A DNA stretch of 21,379 nucleotides from a virus, in IMG/VR virus record IMGVR_UViG_3300025151_000363, positions 1 through 21,379 of that record; one strand, written 5' to 3'. The position numbers and the translations under genes are program-made. Shown here one piece after another: positions 3,032 through 17,263 of this stretch. How positions within the stretch are numbered: position 1 is the first letter of the stretch; every line of letters begins with the position of its first letter. Under the pieces are notes generated by a model. It had not been told where the DNA came from. It did no database searches and saw only the letters and a program-made list of their open reading frames with translations.

Positions 3032-3937
3032 TTATGCGCCGGGTGTTCCGAACACAGCACGCCAATCGCTGACGCCGAAAGAATATCTTTCGCGCGCCTT
3101 GAAACGCATGTTGCCTGTGTCGAAGTCGCCTTCCATCGCTGTCTTGATGGGGGTTCTTTGGAACAACTTGAAGCCGTTGGGAGCGTCTGTCTTAATGAAA
3201 AACGCGTCTGTATCCGTCAAGAAGTGGTTTACAACCGCCCCTTCTGGAAGCATACCCATAGACTTGTTGGCATTGATATCGTTATCTGCCGTTCCCGGTC
3301 GCAGATTTGAGTTCAGAACTCGTTCTGCGATGAATTGCAGTTCTTTCGGTATGATCAATTTCATACCACGAACAGCAATCTTCAGACCTCTTTCGTCGGT
3401 CAGACCAGCAATATCGATCAACATCTGCTCCAGCGAAGTCTCATTGAGATCTGCTGCAGTAGCGAGAAGGTTAGTCTGGTTACCAGAGATAGAGGGGTGA
3501 GCCGCCGAACACAGCGCCGCACCGTCACCGATAGGTGATGCAGTGCTGAATGCTTGGTTCAAAACGGTAGCAGCACGGATCTGCTTGGTTTGAGACATTG
3601 AACGAGCCAGCGCACGCGTATAACGCGCAGCCAGACGGTCGTACAAATTATCTTCTACCGCTTCCTCGGTGATCGAAAAAGCGAGCGCGATTGTCTCGTG
3701 CGTATAACGTGCAGTATATGTTTCCTGCGCGTCATCGAACGAGATTGCGCTGCCTTCTGATTTAACAGGGGCAGTACCAAAACCAGAAAGCATGACTTCT
3801 TCTTCAAACGCGCGGTCTGAAGATTCTTCGTCGAAGATTTCTGCGTGCTCTTGATCGTAACGATCATATTCCAGCCCGAACAAAGCATTAAGGCCGGGTT
3901 CAAGCTCTTTCGCTAATTGTGCGCGAGTAATAGGCAT
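3032..3937 (-). CDS. Major capsid protein
   Basis: This 301-aa protein matches the capsid proteins of marine podoviruses as I remember them. It starts MPITRAQLAKELEPGLNALF, has an acidic stretch (EHAEIFDEESSDRAFEEEV) near residues 30-48, and ends RYSFGVSDWRAVFGTPGA. The middle carries a Thr/Ala-rich helix with a conserved-looking ARSMSQTKQIRAATVLNQAF at about 111-130. A HK97-type fold (gpT-like branch) is likely for this family. AGGAG sits seven bases before ATG 3937, a strong site that fits high expression. Scaffold, GroES and portal lie just upstream in the same operon, and an intrinsic terminator follows directly. No prohead protease is visible in the window. Confidence 0.9.
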   Translation of the reverse strand: MPITRAQLAKELEPGLNALFGLEYDRYDQEHAEIFDEESSDRAFEEEVMLSGFGTAPVKSEGSAISFDDAQETYTARYTHETIALAFSITEEAVEDNLYDRLAARYTRALARSMSQTKQIRAATVLNQAFSTASPIGDGAALCSAAHPSISGNQTNLLATAADLNETSLEQMLIDIAGLTDERGLKIAVRGMKLIIPKELQFIAERVLNSNLRPGTADNDINANKSMGMLPEGAVVNHFLTDTDAFFIKTDAPNGFKLFQRTPIKTAMEGDFDTGNMRFKARERYSFGVSDWRAVFGTPGA

Positions 3938-6720: not shown

Positions 6721-6924
6721 TTATGCGATTGTAAAGCGCCCACCACGTAAAGCAGCGCCCATCCCACGTTTTTTACCGCGTGTAATTTTGGCTGTCATGG
6801 TGTTAGGGGTAGCCTCTTCGGTAGCCACAGCGTATGGAATACTGCCTTGGCCTTCGATTTCTGCCTTTGCAACAGGCTTTGGCGGCTCTTTTGGCTTTAC
6901 GCCATTAACTTTGACTGTTCTCAT
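6721..6924 (-). CDS. Small conserved basic phage protein (67 aa)
   Basis: The protein begins MRTVKVNGVKPKEPPKPVAK and ends with the conserved-looking RGKKRGMGAALRGGRFTIA. The C-terminal RGMGAA-x-RGG pattern is one I know from small proteins next to portal genes in marine phages. The N-terminal half is Pro/Lys-rich and probably disordered. It starts within the portal stop (ATGA overlap), with GAGGTG just upstream, so it is translationally coupled to the portal. Function is unknown; a portal-associated head factor is a guess from position. Confidence 0.72.
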   Translation of the reverse strand: MRTVKVNGVKPKEPPKPVAKAEIEGQGSIPYAVATEEATPNTMTAKITRGKKRGMGAALRGGRFTIA

Positions 6925-9359
6925 GCGTCACCTCTCTGTTTCAATAGTTCCCGTTCGATACCCGCTTGGATGCGAGCTTGCGTTTGGGCCTCTTGACTTG
7001 CCAGCCTTTGCTGGAAGTTTGCTTCACGTTGCGCAAGTTTTTCACGCTCCAGTTGCAGCTTGGCCTGCTCTTCCGCAACATCGTTCTGTTCTTGCTGGGC
7101 CTTGAGTTGCAGTTCTTGCTCCTTCAAAGCAATCAATGGATCAGGTCCCGCCTGCTCCTGCGGTTGTCCCGCCTGCTGAATCTGTTGACCTAACTGAACG
7201 ACCTGCTGCATGCCCTGTGCCACAAACTGCGCCACCATCGATTGATATGGCGCATTGTTCGACGGATCTGCTAGAGCAACGTTTGGATTCTGCTGTGTAA
7301 AAGCAGCCTCAGCTTGTTCTTCCGCCATCAACTGGATGTGGTTCAATATGTGCTTCTGTATCGCAAGCACCACCTGCGGCAACGTAGCAGCCACACCGCC
7401 CGTTACAAACAAAAGGTGGGCCTGTATGTGGGCCATATGGTCTTGGCCCTTAAACGCCTCCAGAGACACGTTCTCGAGCGCGTCCATATTCTCCTGCGCA
7501 GGGTCTTTCGGACGAAGTTCGTCCGAAACTTCCGCATTCAGAATTTGGTCTACATTTTTGACACCCATAGCGTCGTAAACCCGACGGTATACCTGCGGCA
7601 TGTTGTGGATCTGCGGCGCTTGCATAGCCATTTGTAGCTCTGTTTGAGCTAAAGCAATTCGCTGGCTTTGCGAAAAGATGTTTGGGTCAGAAACCGGTAA
7701 TACGTCTACACGTTCATCAAAATCTCTTGCTTTCACCGCCTGATCTGCCCCCGCAACGGCGTACGGGTACACATTAGGTAGGCTTTCGTTCATTACACGC
7801 GCCAAAATCCTAAATTCCACCTTCATAGCGTAGTGAAGGCGTTTATGGATCGCGCTCATCACGCGGGCACCTTGCTCAATCATAGCAATCGTCGTGCCAA
7901 CTGCGGCAGATTGGTTGCCATCGCCTATCTTCATATCGGTAATCGTGGCAAAACGTTGAGCGGCTTGAACTACAAACCCTAAAAGCTGAAATAACGTGCC
8001 GTCAGGGCCTTTGAAAGGCAACGGCATCAAAGAATCGCGTATTTGACCACCGGGAGCGTCTACATCTCTGAATTCACCCGGTTGAAGAGGATCTTCGTCG
8101 TCTCTGATCCTCAAACCACGGGCTTTGAAGCCCGCAGGCAGGTTAGAAAGCGTTCCTGCATCGATTAATTGACGTAAAGCTGCCGTCGCAGTGCGAGAAA
8201 GGCCACCAATCGTGTGAATCAGGCCCATTCCGTAAAAACCGAAGCCGGGCAAAAACTTATAATGGACAAAATACTGGATTTTTGACGTCAAAGGGTCGTC
8301 TTCGCGGTAATTTCGTCGGATTGCCAGCACTTTTCCGTTGTCTTCACTGATCGTAACGACATACGGGACCTTAATTCCGGTCATTTCGCCGTCTTCGTCC
8401 GTATCTTCATACCCTTCAAGGTCTAAATCGACGTGGCATTCCAACAAAGTGCAATCATAGTCGACCCCAGAGGCCCGAGTGCCGTCAATATAGTCTATTT
8501 CGTCGCTGACACTGGTCGAATCTGGCTGCGAAGGCAGTACTTTGATGTCTCGATAGAAGCCACTGACCTGTTGTTTACGCAAATCGTTCAAAGACATGCG
8601 AACAACGTGCGTGATGTTAGGACACGTCTCCAGATCGTTGCTCTCATACGGCACCACAAGGTGCTCTGCCGGTATAAATTTACAAACTGGCCGCCCCAAA
8701 GCGTCATCGAAGTACACTTTTTTGAACGTAGAGCCCGCCAACGGCAAATAAAACAGCATTTGGTCAAACTCTGGCGTGTATTCCTCCATCACATTGGTGA
8801 TGTAGTAGTTCATAAAGTCTTGAACACGCTTGGCTTGATCCATCTTGTCCGTGGTCTGTGAGCCAAGGACCGTGGTTCGTACTGGGCCGTCCGCAGGCAA
8901 AAGCTCATTGAACGCTTGCGCTTGGAACTGAACCGCCGCTTCTGCCAAAAGGGGATGCGTTACACCAGTAGCGCCCCGGAAAGGCTCCGTACGCTCTTCG
9001 TAATTGAAGCCCAAAAGCTCAAGGCCCTTGGAATAAGCGTCTTCCCAATCTTGTCGTGACGCACGGTTCGCGCTGTACTGCTCCATAAGCTCGTTAGAAA
9101 CTTGAGCGAGCACCGAATCAGGCAAAAACTCCGCAAGATTGTCGTAAAAATCGTCTTCTCGTTCACGGTTGCGGAATGGATCGAAATCCAGAGTCGCCCC
9201 ACCGTCATCTTCGCGAATAATTTCTATGCCTTCGATCTCTACGTTAGTGACTAGATCACCGGGCAAAGCCTCTACTTCTACGGCCTGCAAGTCCTCATCG
9301 TCAAGAGTCAAACCTTGTCGATCCATCAATGAAACGGGTGGGGTATCACCATTTGCCAT
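6921..9359 (-). CDS. Portal protein (P22-type)
   Basis: This 812-aa protein has the length and order of podovirus P22-like portals. It has an acidic N-terminus, then a conserved region from about residue 75 (DDFYDNLAEFLPDSVLAQVS, RASRQDWEDAYSKGLELLGF). Next come FRGATGVTHPLLAEAAVQFQ near 125-145 and KFLPGFGFYGMGLIHTIGGL near 365. From about 720 it is Gln/Glu-rich and strongly coiled-coil, matching the portal barrel/C-terminal helix region. The dodecameric portal is the DNA entry point, TerL docking site and nucleus of capsid assembly. GGAG precedes ATG 9359. The next gene starts inside its stop codon. Confidence 0.9.
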   Translation of the reverse strand: MANGDTPPVSLMDRQGLTLDDEDLQAVEVEALPGDLVTNVEIEGIEIIREDDGGATLDFDPFRNREREDDFYDNLAEFLPDSVLAQVSNELMEQYSANRASRQDWEDAYSKGLELLGFNYEERTEPFRGATGVTHPLLAEAAVQFQAQAFNELLPADGPVRTTVLGSQTTDKMDQAKRVQDFMNYYITNVMEEYTPEFDQMLFYLPLAGSTFKKVYFDDALGRPVCKFIPAEHLVVPYESNDLETCPNITHVVRMSLNDLRKQQVSGFYRDIKVLPSQPDSTSVSDEIDYIDGTRASGVDYDCTLLECHVDLDLEGYEDTDEDGEMTGIKVPYVVTISEDNGKVLAIRRNYREDDPLTSKIQYFVHYKFLPGFGFYGMGLIHTIGGLSRTATAALRQLIDAGTLSNLPAGFKARGLRIRDDEDPLQPGEFRDVDAPGGQIRDSLMPLPFKGPDGTLFQLLGFVVQAAQRFATITDMKIGDGNQSAAVGTTIAMIEQGARVMSAIHKRLHYAMKVEFRILARVMNESLPNVYPYAVAGADQAVKARDFDERVDVLPVSDPNIFSQSQRIALAQTELQMAMQAPQIHNMPQVYRRVYDAMGVKNVDQILNAEVSDELRPKDPAQENMDALENVSLEAFKGQDHMAHIQAHLLFVTGGVAATLPQVVLAIQKHILNHIQLMAEEQAEAAFTQQNPNVALADPSNNAPYQSMVAQFVAQGMQQVVQLGQQIQQAGQPQEQAGPDPLIALKEQELQLKAQQEQNDVAEEQAKLQLEREKLAQREANFQQRLASQEAQTQARIQAGIERELLKQRGDA

Positions 9360-9361
9360 AT

Positions 9362-12130
9362 TTAAGCTCCAAAGCTTCCAATGCCTCGACTCAAGCCTAC
9401 CTCACCGCCGTATCGCATACCACCCGGATTCGCTATGTCAACAATCTCGGGATCTTTACGGGGTGGCTTACCCGGACCGCCGCCACCAGTTCGTACACAA
9501 ACGGGTTTGCCATTTACAAACTGCAACGTGTAACCGTTACCACATCGATACATTTGCGTAGGTTCTAGTCCAAATGTGCCGGGGGCCGTGCTTTGAGTAC
9601 CTGTATTAATCACGCCTGAGTCTGGTCCCGGTGCCGCTGATCCGGCAGTAAATGCATCTGTGTTTACGCCGCTTGTGACGTCGCGCGTTCTGAACAACGA
9701 CGGCATTGATTGTTGAGCCACCGGCTTGTAGATAGGCATTGTGTAACCTGTTGCACGTTCTTCTTCCGTGCCTTCAAAAGGCATGTAGGTGCGTTTGATT
9801 TCCATGCCCTGACTACTGGGGTATCCGCTAGTGTATGGAGTTATTGAATCTGCCACATCTAGATCCACCTTTCCTAGCAACGATTGTATGCCTGCAAAGT
9901 TCTGGGCGCTTTCTTGCGCTCGTTGTTGTGCTTGTTGCTTGGCAGCCAGTTGTTGCTCGTACGCAGCGGCAGCCGCAGGCGTCGGATGTAGAGTGCCGTC
10001 GCTTGCTTCTGTGATCACCGCAGGCGTTTGGTTTTGCTGCATCGGATCTTGCTGTGCCGTAGTGGTTGTAGTTGCCGGATCTGCTGTCGTGGTGGTAGTG
10101 GTGACCGGGTCAACAACCTGACCATACATGCTGCGATCAATCGCGGTTCCGGTTTCAGACGGTGTTGTGAACAAGTCTCCTGCGGCAGCTTGTGCTGTTT
10201 CAGCAGCCTGTAAAAGTTCACCTTGCGTCGGTGCGTCGTAGATCGGATCGGGATCAGGAGTGGCCGCGAGTTGCGCTTCCATTGCTAGACGATCCGCTTC
10301 TTGTTGCGCAGCTAGTTGTTCTGCTCGTTGTAACTGGGCAGCCGCTTCTTGATCGGCGGCGATTTGTGCGGCCTCTTGCGCAGCTAGTTGTTCTGCCGCT
10401 AACTGGGCAGCAGCGATACGCTCTGCTTCTGCGGCGGCTCGTGCCTCTTGTTCTGCGGCAAGAGCCGCTGCTTCTTCAGCGGCTTGTCTTTGCGCCAAAG
10501 CTTCGAGAGCGGCTTGCTCATCTGCAAGGGCCTGTGCGGCGGCTGCATCTGCGGCTGCTTGCTCTGCTGCGATTCGCTGAGCCTCTTCTTCTGCAAGACG
10601 AGTCTCTTCCGCCTGTGCGGCCGCTTGTTGAGCAGCTAACGTCTCTGCGGCAAGCCTTTGTGCTTCTTCTGCGGCAGCCTGTTCTTGAGCAATACGAGCA
10701 GCTTCTTGCTGGGCAAGTAGCTCTGCTGCTGCTTGTTCGTTTGCTATTCGAATAGCTTCTTGCTCCGCTGCAACACGGTCTGCTTCTTCTTGTGCAATTC
10801 GTAATTGTTCTGCCTCTTGTGCTGCGAGTGCGTCTGCTGCAGCCTGTTCTGCTGCAAGAACCTCGGCAGCAGAAGGGCCCGGTTGGACGGGATCTGTTTG
10901 GACGGGTGGCAAATAAACAGGGCCAGTTGTACCGCCGCCAGTTGTGCCACCGCCAGTTGTACCGCCGCCAGTTGTACCGCCGCCAGTTGTGCCACCGCCA
11001 GTTGTGCCACCGCCAGTTGTGCCACCGCCAGTTGTGCCACCGCCAGTATCACCGGGTCCGGGTCCGGGTCCCGAATCCGGTGGTGGGTCTGTGTAAACAG
11101 GGGTGTCATCCGGTTTGACGTCATCAACGGGTGTTTCTGCTGTCGTGCCGCCGCCGGGCAGCATGCCCGGCTCGTCCGGTGTTTGACCGGGGGCAGTTAC
11201 AAGCGAACTAGGCGAGATCAAAACATCACTGCCTTCCTGTAGATACATACCCGGCGTAAACGTTTGATCAGGAGACGTGCCATAAATTGTTTGCTCTGGC
11301 AGACCCTCCGGGTTTTGAAATGCCGCCGCCTGTTCGAGCGCCCTTTGTTGGGCTATCAACTCTTGTGTCGTAGGCATCGCTGGCGCGGCTGCTGTGGTAG
11401 CTGCCATCGTTGTGGGCGCGGCTGCAGTTTGCTGGGCCGCTTGCTGGGCCGCTTGCTGGGCCGCTTGCTGGGCTGCCAGTTGCTCAGAGGCCAACCTTTC
11501 TGCCTCTTGCTGGGCTGCCAGTGCGTTTGCTCTGTCTACCTCCGCTTGCATCGCCGCAGCTTCTTCCATTGCTTGTTGATATGCCGCAGCCATTTCCGCT
11601 TCCGACGGACCTGCAGGGCTGGTGCCTGTCGGTGGACCAGAAGTGGTTTGTGTAGGTGGGGGTGGCGGTGGTGGACCGGCCCGCTCTTGAGTTTGCGCCT
11701 GCTCGGCTGCTGCGGCTGCTGCTGCCGGTATTGCATAGGCCGGGAGCTTCGAAAAGTCAAAGTTTGACATGTCAATCTTGGGTTCAAAGCCACCCATCAT
11801 TCCACCCGCAAACATGCCAACAGGTTCTTGTGTTTCACGTGAAACACGTGCAAGAGGCCCCTGTGTGTAACCACGCAATAGGCCCGAGAGCCCCGGTCCG
11901 ATTACACGGCCGCCTTGTGAAAAACCTTCGGGTGGGAATTGATCCGGGGGTGTTTGTTCTTTGATTTGTCTTCGTAGATCTTTTATCTCATCAATCGTTT
12001 TACGCTGTTTTGCCTCTAGACGTTTCCGAGAGACGGCAGTCATAGATTCCTCTGCCAACTCGCGTCCTTGTTTCATAGCTCGGCTTTTTGCTGCTGCTAA
12101 CAGCCTCATAAGCATTACAGGGACAGTCAT
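9362..12130 (-). CDS. Large low-complexity Ala/Gln/Glu-rich protein between TerL and portal (922 aa)
   Basis: I do not recognise a family for most of this protein. Residues 1-60 are basic and helical. SQGGRVIGPG follows at 71-80 and a seven-residue poly-Pro run at about 153-159. Residues 180-240 are an Ala/Gln helix and 362-402 a GGGTT pentapeptide repeat (about eight copies). About 415-650 is a very long Ala/Glu/Gln coiled coil, then Thr- and Pro-rich linkers. A compact C-terminus has FVNGKPVCVRTGG, RKDPEIVDIANPGGM and RYGGEV. GGAG precedes ATG 12130. The gene lies 24 nt after TerL and 2 nt before the portal, so it belongs to the head operon. An elongated virion or internal protein fits, but that is inference. 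A perfect parS-like palindrome lies in codons 95-101. Confidence 0.75.
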   Translation of the reverse strand: MTVPVMLMRLLAAAKSRAMKQGRELAEESMTAVSRKRLEAKQRKTIDEIKDLRRQIKEQTPPDQFPPEGFSQGGRVIGPGLSGLLRGYTQGPLARVSRETQEPVGMFAGGMMGGFEPKIDMSNFDFSKLPAYAIPAAAAAAAEQAQTQERAGPPPPPPPTQTTSGPPTGTSPAGPSEAEMAAAYQQAMEEAAAMQAEVDRANALAAQQEAERLASEQLAAQQAAQQAAQQAAQQTAAAPTTMAATTAAAPAMPTTQELIAQQRALEQAAAFQNPEGLPEQTIYGTSPDQTFTPGMYLQEGSDVLISPSSLVTAPGQTPDEPGMLPGGGTTAETPVDDVKPDDTPVYTDPPPDSGPGPGPGDTGGGTTGGGTTGGGTTGGGTTGGGTTGGGTTGGGTTGGGTTGPVYLPPVQTDPVQPGPSAAEVLAAEQAAADALAAQEAEQLRIAQEEADRVAAEQEAIRIANEQAAAELLAQQEAARIAQEQAAAEEAQRLAAETLAAQQAAAQAEETRLAEEEAQRIAAEQAAADAAAAQALADEQAALEALAQRQAAEEAAALAAEQEARAAAEAERIAAAQLAAEQLAAQEAAQIAADQEAAAQLQRAEQLAAQQEADRLAMEAQLAATPDPDPIYDAPTQGELLQAAETAQAAAGDLFTTPSETGTAIDRSMYGQVVDPVTTTTTTADPATTTTTAQQDPMQQNQTPAVITEASDGTLHPTPAAAAAYEQQLAAKQQAQQRAQESAQNFAGIQSLLGKVDLDVADSITPYTSGYPSSQGMEIKRTYMPFEGTEEERATGYTMPIYKPVAQQSMPSLFRTRDVTSGVNTDAFTAGSAAPGPDSGVINTGTQSTAPGTFGLEPTQMYRCGNGYTLQFVNGKPVCVRTGGGGPGKPPRKDPEIVDIANPGGMRYGGEVGLSRGIGSFGA
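10922..11048. repeat. 15-bp tandem repeat encoding GGGTT units
   Basis: About eight copies of a 15-bp unit built on CGCCAGTTGT lie head to tail. Two variants alternate (flank ACCGC or GCCAC). On the minus strand each encodes Gly-Gly-Gly-Thr-Thr, so the reading frame is kept at any copy number. Near-identity of the copies suggests recent expansion or slippage. Confidence 0.92.
11830..11847. promoter_or_regulatory. parS: Perfect parS-like centromere site inside a coding region
   Basis: TGTTTCACGTGAAACA at 11831-11846 matches the bacterial chromosomal parS consensus (bound by ParB) at all 16 bases, and one more flanking pair extends the palindrome to 18 bp. It lies in codons for RVSRETQ of the 922-aa protein. 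By composition-free chance a given 16-mer is expected about 5 in a million times in 21 kb per strand. The DNA match is direct; binding by a ParB is inference, and no ParB gene is in the window. Confidence 0.7.
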
Positions 12131-12154: not shown

Positions 12155-13630
12155 TTATCCATAATAATTTGCCGCTGAAATCATTTGAGCCGGTCCATAG
12201 CTGTCTTCCCAATCGTCACTGGGCAAATTCACAAAGTTACCTTGACGGTATCGCATCAACGCCTGCGTCGTGCTATCCACCAAGTCATCATGGGTTCCGT
12301 TCGGAAATGCCGCACACTCTTCAATCACCTCGTGCGCCCAGCTTTCATCCGGGGCCCAGATCATCCCCGCTTCAAACAACGGAGAGATAGAATGTACTCT
12401 TGATAACTTATCATTACCACGGCTAGGTGTGAAATTTACAACCGGTATACCCACCTGCCGTAGCTCGTGAGTCAGAGGGGTCCCTGTGGCTTTTGCCTCA
12501 ATAATCACCGTTTCGGGCTCCCAATACTTGTACTGCTCTAACGCAATCTCTTTCAACTCCGGAAAATCCCACCGCCCCTTCTTCGCATCGAGCAAGATAA
12601 GATTCGCGGGGCCCCCAGCCTCCTCCGGATAGAACACACCCCACGTAGTGATCGCACTGTAGTCCGCAGTCTCGCGTTTTGAAAACGCCGTATCGTAACT
12701 TTGTATTACATACTGCAAGTTTGGGATATTGACGCCTTCCCACACCTTCCACCATTCGCGCTTTAAGATCGCCAGCGTTTCTGACGTCGGGGCCTGCTGA
12801 TACTGCGCATTCCACTGGTACGGCGGTATTGACGCCTTTACAGACTCCAACTCTTCTTTTTTCCAGAACTCAGGCCACGTAGGCTCGCCAGACGGTAAAA
12901 TGGCCGGTAATTCCACCACTTCCCACTGATCTGCATGGGGGTCCCTAGTCATTTGACGGATCAAGTTGCCCGTCATGTCTTTTTCAGACCACCGTGTCTG
13001 TACCAAAACGATCGCACCACCCGGCTGCAAACGTTGCCGGGGACCCGCCGTGTACCACTCCCACGCGTTTTCAAACCCGCTCGCCGACATCGCTGTCTGC
13101 TCCGAGTGCGGGTCGTCAATAATAATTAAGTCACCACCACGACCAGCCAAGTTCGAACCGACGCCCACCGCGTAATACATACCACCGGATTTCGTGTCCC
13201 AGCGCCCCGACGCCTTACTGTCCGCCGACAAGATCGTATTATCGAAAATCTCCTGATAATCGTCTTGCTCCAGAAGATTCTTGACCTTTCTACCAAAGTT
13301 CACCGCAAGCTCGGTCGTATGCGTCGCCTGTATGATCTTCATCGCCGGATTGCGCCCAATCATCCACGCCGGAAACAAAAACGACGCAAATTCAGACTTC
13401 GTGTGACGCGGCGGCATGTTAATTATCAACCGCTTCAACGTCCCATTCGCGATCTGCTCTAGCTTCTCAGCGATCAAATGATGATGCCGACCCGCAATAA
13501 ACTGCGGCCACATAGAATTTACAAATGGTAAAAAATTATTTTGGCAGGATTCCACACGCTCAAGCTGCTTCAGACGCAACTCTAAACGTAATTTCTGGAC
13601 ATCCGTTGTTGAATCTAAACTAAGGCTCAA
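12155..13630 (-). CDS. terL: Terminase large subunit (TerL)
   Basis: The 491-aa protein shows both TerL domains. The ATPase has a variant Walker A at 72-80 (MPPRHTKSE), Walker B at 168-175 (LIIIDDPH) with the catalytic acid, and a coupling-like VLVQTRWSEKD near 208. The RNase H-like nuclease has D313 (SYDTAFSK), E378 (VIIEAKATG) and D448/D449 (THDDLVDS). It pumps DNA through the portal and cuts concatemers. It has a TTG start at 13630, overlapping the nuclease stop (TTGA), with AGGGA five bases upstream. The next in-frame Met is far inside, at about residue 40, so TTG is favoured. The 922-aa gene follows after 24 nt. Confidence 0.95.
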   Translation of the reverse strand: MSLSLDSTTDVQKLRLELRLKQLERVESCQNNFLPFVNSMWPQFIAGRHHHLIAEKLEQIANGTLKRLIINMPPRHTKSEFASFLFPAWMIGRNPAMKIIQATHTTELAVNFGRKVKNLLEQDDYQEIFDNTILSADSKASGRWDTKSGGMYYAVGVGSNLAGRGGDLIIIDDPHSEQTAMSASGFENAWEWYTAGPRQRLQPGGAIVLVQTRWSEKDMTGNLIRQMTRDPHADQWEVVELPAILPSGEPTWPEFWKKEELESVKASIPPYQWNAQYQQAPTSETLAILKREWWKVWEGVNIPNLQYVIQSYDTAFSKRETADYSAITTWGVFYPEEAGGPANLILLDAKKGRWDFPELKEIALEQYKYWEPETVIIEAKATGTPLTHELRQVGIPVVNFTPSRGNDKLSRVHSISPLFEAGMIWAPDESWAHEVIEECAAFPNGTHDDLVDSTTQALMRYRQGNFVNLPSDDWEDSYGPAQMISAANYYG

Positions 13631-14046
13631 AGGGGTCCCTGACTTAAATACTTAACAAGTGGACTATAGCCACCAGAACACGGAAACGTAAGACGCGGCG
13701 GCGATTTGTGCATCCCGTTCACCGATACATCCATCACCTGATCCGCTGAATACAACAAACACTCCGGCTGCGTGTCCGCTGGCCGCCAACGCTGCACCAA
13801 TACCCAACAATTACTGCCCTGATGCCGTACCGCGAAGCTCACTTGAAACGGAGACAAGTTAACCTGATTGCCCTTCGCAACCTTCAACTCGATCATATGC
13901 AACCGCTTGTTACGGTCCATCAACAATAAATCTGGGATACCCGGTGTCTGACTGTTCTCAATACGCGTCAGTACAACGTCCGAGTCCAGCTTCTCAATGT
14001 TAGCCTTGAGCGCCTTCCAGAAGTTCGACTCCGTCCGCTTCGACAT
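13627..14046 (-). CDS. PD-(D/E)XK nuclease of the VRR-NUC type
   Basis: The 139-aa protein shows a minimal PD-(D/E)XK core: E6 in TESNFW, GIPD with D39, E53-L54-K55 in HMIELKVAKG, then QVNLSPFQ. This order (N-terminal acid, PD, E-x-K, SP-x-Q) is that of small phage VRR-NUC or resolvase-like nucleases. A role in resolving branched DNA before packaging, or in host DNA breakdown, is plausible but not shown. It begins at ATG 14046, overlapping the end of terS by 47 nt, with AAGG seven bases upstream. It ends in a TTGA overlap with terL, so packaging genes and nuclease are translated together. Confidence 0.83.
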   Translation of the reverse strand: MSKRTESNFWKALKANIEKLDSDVVLTRIENSQTPGIPDLLLMDRNKRLHMIELKVAKGNQVNLSPFQVSFAVRHQGSNCWVLVQRWRPADTQPECLLYSADQVMDVSVNGMHKSPPRLTFPCSGGYSPLVKYLSQGPL

Positions 14047-14539
14047 CGATCACCTTCTCACCCAACTGGGCCTTCAACTCGTTCAACGCCTTCACAACCT
14101 CTTCCTTCGACATCTGGTCAATCGACCCATGACGAATCTCGCTCTTGTTGACGTAGATGTCACCTTGGGCCAAGCCCCGCGCTTTCTCAGCCTGTACCGC
14201 AGCACTGTACGCACCGTTCTCCAAAGCCTCGTCACGTATCCGCTGCAAATCCCGAATGTGCCTCGAGTACGTCACTTCATACTTCTCAGCTAACTCGCGC
14301 CGCCGCTCACGCAATGCCTTCACAATATGCGGCGATTTTTGCGGGTTTAACATCTCATACGCCCGGGTATGCGCACCCTTAACACTAAACCCAGCCTCTG
14401 CAGCCAGATTACGAAGCGTATCCTGCCCCTCCCGCGTCGCAACCAACTCGACAAACTTCACCTGCTTGCCGGTCAAACGCGTATTCTCAGATACTCGCGG
14501 ACGACCCCGCGTTTCAACTTTTCCTGCCTCTTTGGCCAT
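14000..14539 (-). CDS. terS: Terminase small subunit (TerS)
   Basis: The 179-aa protein has a Terminase_2-type N-terminal DNA-binding region: LTGKQVKFVELVATREGQDT near residues 22-41, followed by NLAAEAGFSVKGAHTRAYEM and LNPQKSPHIVKAL. A coiled-coil oligomerisation region follows (KALRERRRELAEKYEV). The conserved C-terminal segment HGSIDQMSKEEVVKALNELK, near 138-157, is typical of marine phage TerS. TerS recognises pac or cos DNA and recruits TerL. It is the first gene of the head operon, preceded by a promoter-like sequence and by the GC-rich noncoding stretch. The ribosome binding site is weak (GGGA). Confidence 0.85.
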   Translation of the reverse strand: MAKEAGKVETRGRPRVSENTRLTGKQVKFVELVATREGQDTLRNLAAEAGFSVKGAHTRAYEMLNPQKSPHIVKALRERRRELAEKYEVTYSRHIRDLQRIRDEALENGAYSAAVQAEKARGLAQGDIYVNKSEIRHGSIDQMSKEEVVKALNELKAQLGEKVIDVEADGVELLEGAQG

Positions 14540-14603: not shown

Positions 14604-15133
14604 GGCCCACGGACCTTGGTTCGTTTTCACGCCGTATTGTTTGCGTAAAACCTGCACACTTACACGCTTTGTTTTTTTTTACCAACGACCGCGTTGGAAT
14701 CGCCGGGGCGTCGATCGCTGTGCATTGTTGTTAGCCTCGATTGTCCGGGGGACCCGGGCGGGGAACCGGGACCGGGGGCCAATGTTCGCGGACCGGGGGC
14801 CAATGTTCGCGGGCCTTGGAAGTTAAAAAGCGGCAAAAAATCACTTCCACGTTTTAAAAAAACCAACGTCCACGGGGCGCGGGCCTTGGATCGCGGACAA
14901 ATGCCGGCCGCTGCGGGCGCGTTTCCTGCAGCAAACCGGCGCGGACAGTTCGATTTCACCCGGTTCGCGGGGCGTAACCCCGCAGAATTGCACGCTGCGC
15001 GCGGATCGCGGGCCAATTGCTGCGGCTTTTGGGCCTGCAGCGGGGCCAATAAACCACGCGCCACGGGGCGCGGTACGTTTCAAGCCGCCCCCGGGCGGCG
15101 GGGCGGGGCCTGTTTCACCGGTAAATAACAGGC
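14604..15133. other. GC-rich noncoding region with repeats and hairpins, candidate packaging site or structured element
   Basis: I find no credible gene here. By hand count 14701-15120 is about 66% G+C. GGGCCAAT occurs four times (14776, 14797, 15010, 15043). CGCGGGCCTTGGA occurs twice (ends 14820 and 14890), and a related ACCTTGG lies at 14612. Strong hairpins lie at 14967-14983 (GCGGGG/CCCCGC), 15057-15072 (CGCGCC/GGCGCG) and 15084-15099. An inverted repeat GCCTGTT/AACAGGC at 15108-15133 closes the right edge. It sits between a terminator and the terS promoter. Phage pac/cos sites often lie by terS, hence the suggestion; an origin or noncoding RNA is equally open. Confidence 0.6.
14771..14812. 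repeat. Two perfect tandem copies of a 21-bp unit
   Basis: The unit begins ACCGGGGGCCAATG and ends TTCGCGG. Copies at 14771-14791 and 14792-14812 are identical and directly abut. Parts of the unit (GGGCCAAT, CGCGGGCC) recur further right, so the tandem looks like the densest part of a degenerate array. Confidence 0.9.
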
Positions 15134-15159
15134 AAAAAAAGGCCCGCATATAGCGGGCC
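15134..15159 (-). terminator. Intrinsic terminator after the 170-aa gene
   Basis: The minus strand reads GGCCCGC, a TATAT loop, GCGGGCC and seven T. The stem has seven GC pairs. It lies 21 nt after the stop of the gene at 15180-15692 and shields the GC-rich region and terS from upstream transcription. Confidence 0.9.
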
Positions 15160-15179
15160 AGATCCACCAGGGCGATCTA

Positions 15180-15692
15180 TCACATTTCTTGAATCCAGCC
15201 GGCGACCTGCTGAATATACCGCTCGACCGTGTAATAAACGTAATTACTCGATTGTTCGGATAGTCGGTGAATATCTTTCAACTCTATTTTTTGCCACGCG
15301 TCCCACCATGAATGCTCGAAATAAAAATTATCGGTCGCCCCGTACCCGTCGAATTCCGCGACGATCTTAACCGCTGGGCCGCCCCCCGCTAAAATAATAC
15401 GCGCCTCGACGCCAGCGTCCGACGCGTGCCAATTTTCTGGATCAGTAGACCAACAGGAACGGTACTCCACACCATGATGGTGATCGTCCCAATTCCATTT
15501 ATTAAACTCGTCTAAATCCGAATCTTTAAACGCGCCTTTATAAGTGGCCTCTTCTAATTGCCAATGCTGATCGGTGACCTCAACAACCCGGCGAATGCAC
15601 GCCCAGACAGTATTTTCTTGATCGCCAAATGCGCTTAATTCTGAAATAGCTATATCGTGAACGCTGCGAGCGTCGTTAGAAATTAATTCCAT
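15180..15692 (-). CDS. Unknown acidic protein behind the 47-bp repeated leader (170 aa)
   Basis: I do not recognise a family. The start is ATG 15692 (MELISNDARS). An in-frame extension to 15758 would translate the repeated leader and promoter, so it is rejected. The protein is Trp/Asp/His-rich (NKWNWDDHHHGVEYRSCWST near 79-98) with a hydrophobic strand AVKIVAEFDGYGATDNFYFE near 120-139 and a helical C-terminus. The EFDGYGAT part resembles IEVDGYSHT at the end of the neighbouring 76-aa protein, a hint of distant paralogy. It has its own promoter, leader and terminator. A marine-phage early or accessory role is possible but unproven. Confidence 0.72.
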   Translation of the reverse strand: MELISNDARSVHDIAISELSAFGDQENTVWACIRRVVEVTDQHWQLEEATYKGAFKDSDLDEFNKWNWDDHHHGVEYRSCWSTDPENWHASDAGVEARIILAGGGPAVKIVAEFDGYGATDNFYFEHSWWDAWQKIELKDIHRLSEQSSNYVYYTVERYIQQVAGWIQEM

Positions 15693-15734
15693 TTTTCGTT
15701 TTCCTATTAGTGCGCCCCGGTATGGGACGTTGCG
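15688..15734 (-). repeat. 47-bp direct repeat, leader copy 1
   Basis: All 47 bases are identical to 16030-16076. On the minus strand it runs from the predicted transcription start through a hairpin (CGTCCC, ATACC loop, GGGGCG) and TAGGAAAAC to the start codon (AAAATGGA). So both genes share the same 5' untranslated region. Confidence 0.95.
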
Positions 15735-15737
15735 TTG

Positions 15738-15764
15738 ATTGTATCGAATTGCGCGCATAAAAAA
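15738..15764 (-). promoter_or_regulatory. Candidate promoter for the 170-aa gene
   Basis: Minus strand TACAAT (15743-15738) is a good -10, three bases before leader copy 1. A T run (part of the preceding terminator) lies 15 nt upstream and replaces a -35. The layout equals that of the promoter before leader copy 2. Confidence 0.55.
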
Positions 15765-15803: not shown

Positions 15804-16034
15804 TTAGGTGTGAGAGTACCCGTCGACTTCTATGCCGATCGTCATACCGGGCACAGTCGCCAATAAACAATTATCCAGATATTCGAGCTGGATAACGTCG
15901 CGCTTGATCCAATCCATAAAACCAACGTTTTTAAAATCGCCGTGTTCGCTATCGCGCACGTGCCGCTCGAAAATTCGAACAAGGGCGGTCGATTGTTCTT
16001 TTGTTGCGGTTTCTAATAAATCTAATAAATCCAT
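15804..16034 (-). CDS. Unknown small acidic protein behind the 47-bp repeated leader (76 aa)
   Basis: The start is ATG 16034 (MDLLDLLETATKEQST), at the end of leader copy 2. A longer reading frame to 16175 would translate through a terminator and promoter and is rejected. The N-terminal half is helical. The C-terminal part (IKRDVIQLEYLDNCLLATVP, then GIEVDGYSHT) looks like two or three strands and resembles the EY-C-...-E-x-DGY pattern of the 170-aa neighbour. No known family was recognised. It is flanked by terminators on both sides, so it is a single-gene transcript. Confidence 0.68.
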   Translation of the reverse strand: MDLLDLLETATKEQSTALVRIFERHVRDSEHGDFKNVGFMDWIKRDVIQLEYLDNCLLATVPGMTIGIEVDGYSHT

Positions 16035-16076
16035 TTTTCGTTTTCCTATTAGTGCGCCCCGGTATGGGACGTTGCG
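16030..16076 (-). repeat. 47-bp direct repeat, leader copy 2
   Basis: All 47 bases are identical to 15688-15734, with the same distance (three bases) from the -10 box on one side and the start codon on the other. Bases outside the repeat differ at once, so identity is limited to the leader. Confidence 0.95.
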
Positions 16077-16079
16077 AGG

Positions 16080-16106
16080 AGTATAGGAGTTGACGCAGAC
16101 AAAAAA
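16080..16106 (-). promoter_or_regulatory. Candidate promoter for the 76-aa gene
   Basis: Minus strand TATACT (16085-16080) is a near-consensus -10. As in the neighbouring promoter, a T run ends 15 nt upstream and the repeated leader starts three bases downstream. Confidence 0.58.
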
Positions 16107-16125
16107 AAGGCCCCGGAATGGGGCC
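16101..16125 (-). terminator. Intrinsic terminator after the DUF932 gene
   Basis: The minus strand reads GGCCCC, an ATTCC loop, GGGGCC and eight T. It begins 22 nt after the stop at 16148. Confidence 0.9.
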
Positions 16126-16147
16126 TTATGTTGGTGGGTGCGTAGAT

Positions 16148-17263
16148 CTACGCAGCGCGGGCTATCGTTTCCCACTGGTTAGCAGGCAAGTCCAAAACGG
16201 CGCGGCCGTTCCCGTACCATTCATCGACGTTATCCGCCGGGACAGTATGGGCGACTGCAGTTACCGCGTTAACAATGGTCGCGCGCGAGATCGGCTTGTT
16301 GGTGTACCCCGGCTGCTGAATGGTTTGCATCAAGCCCGCGAGAATGTCGCCGCTGGATTTTTTCGGCAGGCTTAACACTTTCACGACGCTATCAACGACG
16401 GCCGTAGGATTCGCTAAACCATTCTCGACGATATCACCATGCGCGATTCGGAATTTTTCAAGGGCCTCGTCGAAACTATCGCGGCTGGTGTACCCGGCGA
16501 CAACATCGCGCAATTTCAACTGCAGCGCGTGATTATCCGCATCCTTAGCTTCGCTTGTGAGTAAGGACCAATCTTCGGTCCCCCGGGCGCTTGTGACGTG
16601 CGTATGGCGGCTTTTTCGTTGGCTTTGCATGCCGTTCAAACAAGCCAACGTCCAAATAAGCTGCATAACCTCAACGCTACCCATGCCTACTTCACTATTC
16701 CGAAGCATGATCCCGTTCGCCATATGATCACCTAGTGCCGGCTCGCCTACTTGAGTTAACGATTTTAGGCGCATGTATAAACGCTCGTCGGTAACGGTGC
16801 CGTTGACGATCTGCCAGTTGGCCTCGCTTTCCATTAGCTGCGGAAGCGCGGCCTCGACTAAATCGACGTTATCAAACGTTTTAAATTTGTCGCTAACGAT
16901 CGCGCGAACTAACGGCTGATCACCGTCAAACGTGCGCAACATTTTGGATTTAGGCTCGTTAACCAGAATTTTATTAATTAGGTTATCGAATTCCGGCGCG
17001 TAGTTTTCATTGTCGCGCAAACGTCGCGCCGTTCTAACGTCAATGTCGCAATTGCTGGCCAATTGTTGGAATGCAACCTCATTGGTTTGGAATTCCATCG
17101 TTGGCATACCCCGGTTAGCTTCTAGCACTATGTTGGTGTTGCCGTCGACAGTTTGTACCTGTAACGCATCGGTCGGCGCTACATAGTCTACTTTGCGCGC
17201 GGCCTCGGCTTGGATTTTTTCCAAAATGCTCTGCAATGTGCCTTTTTCGTTTTCGATGTTCAT
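16148..17263 (-). CDS. DUF932 phage/plasmid protein (371 aa)
   Basis: The sequence pattern is that of DUF932 (phage/plasmid-like, TIGR03299 type). MEFQTNEVAFQQLASNCDID (near 76-95) precedes ARRLRDNENYAPEFDNLINK. PLVRAIVSDKFKTFDNVDLV lies near 128-147, then YMRLKSLTQV, GIMLRNSEVGMGSVEVMQLI, and a conserved Cys in WTLACLNGM. These proteins occur in many phages and plasmids near replication or recombination genes. Their reaction is not established and no catalytic motif is clear. AAGG lies ten bases before ATG 17263. It is separated from the GP88 gene by a 100-bp gap with a palindrome and is closed by its own terminator. Confidence 0.82.
   Translation of the reverse strand: MNIENEKGTLQSILEKIQAEAARKVDYVAPTDALQVQTVDGNTNIVLEANRGMPTMEFQTNEVAFQQLASNCDIDVRTARRLRDNENYAPEFDNLINKILVNEPKSKMLRTFDGDQPLVRAIVSDKFKTFDNVDLVEAALPQLMESEANWQIVNGTVTDERLYMRLKSLTQVGEPALGDHMANGIMLRNSEVGMGSVEVMQLIWTLACLNGMQSQRKSRHTHVTSARGTEDWSLLTSEAKDADNHALQLKLRDVVAGYTSRDSFDEALEKFRIAHGDIVENGLANPTAVVDSVVKVLSLPKKSSGDILAGLMQTIQQPGYTNKPISRATIVNAVTAVAHTVPADNVDEWYGNGRAVLDLPANQWETIARAA

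Follow-up and report, generated by a model that had tools for sequence, protein, structure and literature searches.

Why should a phage carry, inside a gene of its head operon, a perfect copy of the sequence at which bacterial chromosomes load the partition protein ParB, and what could the site do there? Chromosomal ParB recognises parS, forms a closed CTP clamp there and spreads outwards (PMC12704722). The copy discussed here lies in an IMG/VR virus record (IMGVR_UViG_3300025151_000363), of which positions 1 to 21,379 were analysed; this whole stretch of 21,379 nucleotides is called the window below. A first-pass annotation had reported the perfect parS within a phage gene and had suggested that the phage recruits host ParB, or uses the site as a packaging or replication landmark.

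The central claim of that annotation was confirmed. The 16-mer TGTTTCACGTGAAACA at 11831-11846 is exact and equals the consensus of chromosomal parS, the same sequence that was used for ParB-parS crystallography (PMC7383237), so that the site is of the chromosomal type as defined by the 16-bp consensus. Together with an outer G/C pair it forms a perfect palindrome of 18 bp (11830-11847). This extension, which had also been noted, is present in the window, but the relatives described below keep only the 16-mer. The 21.4-kb virus record contains no other match to parS, even at three mismatches, and 100 shuffles of the window gave 0.20 matches at up to three mismatches. By chance, an exact parS is expected about 5e-6 times in 21.4 kb. 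Judged from the sequence, the presence of parS in this phage is not due to chance.

The site is embedded in an open reading frame directly downstream of the gene for the terminase large subunit (TerL). Around it extends a head and packaging module with genes for the major capsid protein, GroES, the portal protein, the site-bearing protein, TerL and a weak match to the terminase small subunit (TerS). The relevant features are:

6921-9359, minus strand: portal protein
9362-12130, minus strand: ORF of 922 aa containing parS, low-complexity and rich in Ala/Gln/Pro/Thr; weak PHROG match, virion structural protein
11830-11847, no strand: 18-bp perfect palindrome, outermost G/C pair variable in relatives
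11831-11846, no strand: parS, 16-bp palindrome and conserved unit (consensus, PMC7383237)
11849-11860, minus strand: GPLA codons adjoining parS, internal control with free synonymous drift
12155-13630, minus strand: TerL, anchor gene for finding relatives
13627-14046, minus strand: small protein upstream of TerL; PHROG 2165 'DNA helicase', VRR-NUC nuclease-like by eye
14000-14539, minus strand: terminase small subunit; weak match, phrog_51

The 922-aa ORF also contains a low-complexity tract of short tandem repeats (GGGTT-type peptide) at 10744-11127. Upstream of the TerS-like gene, the GC-rich and repetitive stretch 14660-15167 holds no convincing gene on either strand. Two neighbouring minus-strand ORFs, 15180-15758 and 15804-16175, have the peptide NVPYRGALIGKRKM in common, close to the start of each, indicating that a direct repeat precedes both genes. 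A role in defence was considered for the site-bearing ORF and for three further proteins of the window, and was dropped since PADLOC matched none of the four.

We subsequently searched IMG/VR with TerL and obtained 80 related viral loci. About 56 of them carry parS-like 16-mers near TerL; 34 have an exact parS, 41 a site with at most one mismatch and 52 one with at most two. As an empirical null, every palindrome whose half-site has the same composition as that of parS, 840 in all, was counted in the same 80 loci. The 839 palindromes other than parS had no exact match, matched at most one locus with one mismatch, and matched a mean of 0.23 loci with two mismatches. In this TerL family the distance between the site and TerL does not exceed a few kb, with the site on one side of the gene or the other. 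The longer contigs usually contain a single parS, for example one each in contigs of 56.5 kb and 47.7 kb. A 50.9-kb genome (G004, L216) has two sites 11 kb apart (3193-3208 and 14292-14307), of which one is distant from TerL and lies in another ORF.

Not every relative has the site. Two loci with 95-96% TerL identity (L011, L012) have no parS in the stretch examined. Six low-GC, SAR11-like members of the family (L073-L076, L078, L079) have no good parS, which indicates that it is not needed by all relatives; a normal parS is present in at least one SAR11 genome. The best case among isolates is the relative HTVC027P, with a parS-like site that has one mismatch. This site lies between gp31 and gp32 in an unannotated open frame (L201:16180-16520; MN698241.1) that resembles a VRR-NUC-type nuclease. 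HTVC027P was therefore downgraded as an isolate with a clean parS, because of the mismatch and because FHVKH in its frame could be a protein motif.

The palindrome was then considered beyond this family. Exact scans of IMG/VR for TGTTTCACGTGAAACA, TGTTCCACGTGGAACA and the 18-mer GTGTTTCACGTGAAACAC returned at least about 120 matches each, compared to 20 and 11 matches in complete scans with two control palindromes. Chromosomal contamination of the viral contigs was rejected as an explanation, since gidA, gidB or parA of the chromosomal kind occurred in 0 of 350 parS-bearing viral loci among the matches listed. More than one parS was present in 51 of these 350 loci, again among the matches listed. 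ParB_N was found in 2 of 50 and 3 of 40 parS contigs (5/90), above the curated cut-off in one contig per set. Orphan parS thus appears to be widespread among phages, and many others apparently borrow host ParB, too.

Some of these phages carry arrays. In a 116.7-kb contig with a GC content of 0.65, twelve exact copies of TGTTYCACGTGRAACA follow one another at intervals of a few hundred bases, apparently at gene boundaries (L165:8906-13878); ParB_N was not found in this contig. Five copies of TGTTCCACGTGGAACA in L442:4324-10457 have an operator-like arrangement, each shortly before a promoter-like stretch and a ribosome-binding site. Such multiple intergenic copies, as in stoperator or start-associated operator arrays, set these two loci apart from the window lineage, which mostly has one copy. 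In a second TerL lineage (L096, L123, L132), clusters of three to five parS lie upstream of TerL and no ParB was found; the related L128 has one parS at the contig edge. L277:4238-4277 contains TGTTTCACGTGAAACA and TGTTCCACGTGGAACA in tandem upstream of TerL, with starts 24 bp apart. Roseobacter phage CRP-810, an isolate that encodes an integrase, carries TGTTCCACGTGGAACC within a large hypothetical gene (L206:16551-16566). The records of the isolate phages Yara and ct7L0027, related to the multi-site arrays, showed no parS in the stretch read.

A different location was also observed close to the window clade. In a sister clade (clade B), the DNA that holds parS is upstream of TerL and does not code for protein, the relevant frame being interrupted by stop codons; the distance to TerL is mostly 37-166 nt or about 1,070 nt. 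Between the clade B subgroups the flanks are wholly different around an intact 16-mer. Most loci of the largest subgroup have a conserved promoter-like TTGTTA-N17-CATATT about 45 nt downstream of parS. L038, L054 and their clade B kin share a conserved TGCCTA motif together with TTGTTA-N17-CATATT, 0-75 nt after the non-coding parS.

These arrangements bring up the main rival to ParB loading, namely that a phage-encoded regulator other than ParB uses the palindrome as its operator, or that the palindrome is a transcription switch dependent on host ParB. Such a role is plausible from the intergenic arrays, with twelve copies at gene boundaries in L165 and five before gene starts in L442, and from the clade B sites shortly upstream of TerL, often ahead of the promoter-like element. 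It is not plausible from the site of the window clade, which is single and lies within coding sequence, with no promoter context seen. Furthermore, the degeneracy of chromosomal parS is exactly kept, which an independent regulator need not do. Overall, we consider an operator unlikely. A possible binder of this kind would be a phage-encoded protein with parS-like specificity but without ParB_N.

Still less probable is a landmark function, in which TerS or another phage protein would read parS as a signal for packaging (pac/cos) or replication. The position of parS within a few kb of TerL in the window's family would fit such a role, but many members of this family lack the site, and a TerS target is not expected to match the consensus of bacterial parS. 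In contigs sampled by parS only, 16 sites were within 2.5 kb of TerL versus 13.8 expected (Fisher p=0.23), a distance not shorter than chance, and a general proximity of parS to TerL or packaging genes was therefore rejected. Many seemingly independent cases of TerL-adjacent parS turned out to belong to the same extended TerL family. A replication-origin landmark was rejected because the GC-skew minimum of the window is at 18.7 kb, away from parS. We regard both versions of the landmark as very improbable.

A further question is whether the protein could account for the site. The codons GTT TCA CGT GAA ACA within the palindrome encode VSRET on the minus strand, in the wider stretch R-V-S-R-E-T-Q. 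It had been argued initially that the amino acids hardly demand the site. This does not hold as such, since the relatives do conserve a peptide V[SP]R[EG]T; the codons, however, show that it is the DNA which is conserved. We compared the 28 coding copies of the window clade. The position of parS in the ORF after TerL ranges from about 95 to over 1000 codons in this clade, but its frame is constant, and it always lies a few codons past an invariant GPLA. This peptide is encoded by 4 (G), 4 (P), 5 (L) and 4 (A) synonymous codons across the 28 loci. Within parS, in contrast, the V codon is GTT in 26 of 28 copies and TTT in two, the S/P codon is TCA or CCA, the R codon CGT and the E/G codon GAA or GGA in all 28, and the T codon is ACA in 24. 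Most of the aligned copies were identified through the site itself, and the copies are related rather than phylogenetically independent, so these conservation figures are descriptive and not formal probabilities.

The wobble positions of GTT-[TC]CA-CGT-G[AG]A are thus fixed, even across the changes from S to P and from E to G. The two changes mostly coincide, converting TGTTTC..GAAACA into TGTTCC..GGAACA, and thereby keep the palindrome. Entropy is near zero within the 16-mer, except at positions 5 and 12 and, less so, at positions 1, 2 and 16, and rises to 1-2 bits directly outside its edges. The first-pass annotation had proposed synonymous drift as a check on the site, and the result came out in its favour: the wobbles are frozen within the site, whereas those of the invariant codons next to it drift. 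The codon evidence indicates that selection is acting on parS at the DNA level, beyond the coding demand.

A coincidence at the protein level, in which a conserved V[SP]R[EG]T merely happens to be encoded by a palindrome, is thereby largely refuted by the codon data, and we give it hardly any credence. It can draw on the conservation of the peptide beside GPLA in 28 loci, but under the codon usage of the family the probability of the palindromic spelling is 0.002 for VSRET and 0.0008 for VPRGT, and in clade B this DNA does not code for protein. Moreover, locus L031 retains GPLA and has lost both VSRET and parS, so the peptide is dispensable.

An RNA hairpin or terminator with a UGUUUC/GAAACA stem is just as remote: symmetric substitutions would also preserve a stem and a hairpin is predicted in L038 (z -2.7), but it is weak in L067 (z -1.2) and not predicted, hence not favoured, in the window transcript (z -0.83), and the invariance of the central ACGT and of most stem bases does not fit a freely compensating stem.

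Does the phage provide its own ParB? The claim that the window contains no ParB gene proved correct for the 20 window ORFs scanned. ParB_N (PF02195) was absent from 20 of 20 relatives, including contigs of 57.5 and 56.5 kb, several of these records being incomplete. ParA (PF13614) and integrase were each found in 0 of 14 records (the window, 12 larger contigs and HTVC027P), several of which are likewise incomplete. A ParB or ParA of their own was therefore rejected for the window and its relatives, within the ORFs and related records scanned. Since the record is a phage and its relatives yielded neither gene, parS is an orphan and does not belong to a complete system. For HTVC027P, an obligately lytic life cycle is described (PMC12753301), which makes prophage partition an unlikely purpose of parS in its kin. 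The window lineage consists of marine tailed phages that are apparently lytic and yielded neither ParA nor ParB.

On the bacterial side, the TerL hits led to genomes and MAGs whose parS is TGTTTCACGTGAAACA or TGTTCCACGTGGAACA, and a mixed form occurs as well. The phage sites show the same two forms and the same degeneracy as bacterial chromosomes. In a Pelagibacteraceae single-cell genome, parS is located inside gidB next to parA and also encodes VSRET.

We therefore return to the host protein: the 16-mer of the window is probably an orphan parS, a candidate cis-acting loading site that recruits chromosomal ParB of the host. The recruitment proposed at the outset gains support from the DNA-level conservation, while its variants as a replication or general packaging landmark remained unsupported. 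Judging by the established biochemistry of ParB, phage DNA that enters the cell or replicates would be recognised by host ParB at parS. ParB would close as a CTP clamp on the phage DNA and spread over kilobases, as at chromosomal parS, and a single site per genome would be enough to nucleate the ParB complex. During phage replication, the number of parS would rise to the number of phage genomes. Two consequences can be envisaged, and they are the least certain steps. ParB might tie phage genomes to the ParA-driven partition and positioning machinery, in effect hijacking the centromere function. Alternatively or in addition, the multiplying phage sites might titrate ParB, and ParB-dependent SMC loading, away from the chromosome, which would disturb segregation and division of the host. 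That genome positioning, ParB titration or both are the main benefit of recruitment is a tentative suggestion, to which we give slightly less than even chances. Beyond this lineage, a large set of phages rather likely uses orphan chromosome-type parS as 'centromere mimics', which would capture host ParB in lytic infection in order to position or segregate phage genomes and/or sabotage segregation of the host chromosome.

For lytic phages, it is largely open how and where in the host their genomes are kept and moved. A 16-bp site is easily deleted or transplanted, so that the use of a host centromere protein by a phage is directly testable. If the proposal is true, phages that interact with the segregation machinery could be told from their sequence by this site, and ParB clamp loading would have a part in infection.

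Already known are ParABS systems of phages that encode their own ParB, and an integrative element that hijacks a plasmid parABS. In the searchable literature, which excludes preprints and most subscription journals, no description of chromosome-type parS on ParB-less phages was found. A chromosome-type parS under DNA-level selection in phages without ParB is thus apparently new to this literature.

Chromosomal parS, for example inside gidB by parAB, has the same 16-bp sequence and variants, and its coding copies use the same VSRET frame. In contrast to it, the phage site has no parAB or oriC adjoining it on the same replicon, is not near a chromosome origin and usually occurs once per phage genome. 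The Noc-binding site (NBS, TATTTCCCGGGAAATA) is also a palindromic loading site of the ParB family, but the window site matches parS and not NBS. Phage-plasmids such as P1 and mycobacteriophage RedRock encode their own ParA and ParB and have divergent parS repeats for prophage maintenance (PMC7157519). They resemble the window phage in carrying a centromere sequence, which is bound by ParB in their case and predicted to be so here; the window lineage differs from them in that neither par genes of its own nor an integrase were found. Phage Lacachita has an orphan ParB-like gene (PMC10286716) and thus also an incomplete partition set, the mirror image of a parS without ParB. A comparable arrangement is that of SGI1, which has parS-like sites without par genes and uses ParA and ParB of IncC plasmids for its own stability (PMC10954446). 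It also upsets IncC plasmid partition by centromere competition (PMC10954446). SGI1 is integrative and its parS is of the plasmid type, whereas the window phage, with no integrase found, has the type of the host chromosome. Like SGI1, the window phage is a mobile element that carries the parS of another replicon and no par genes of its own.
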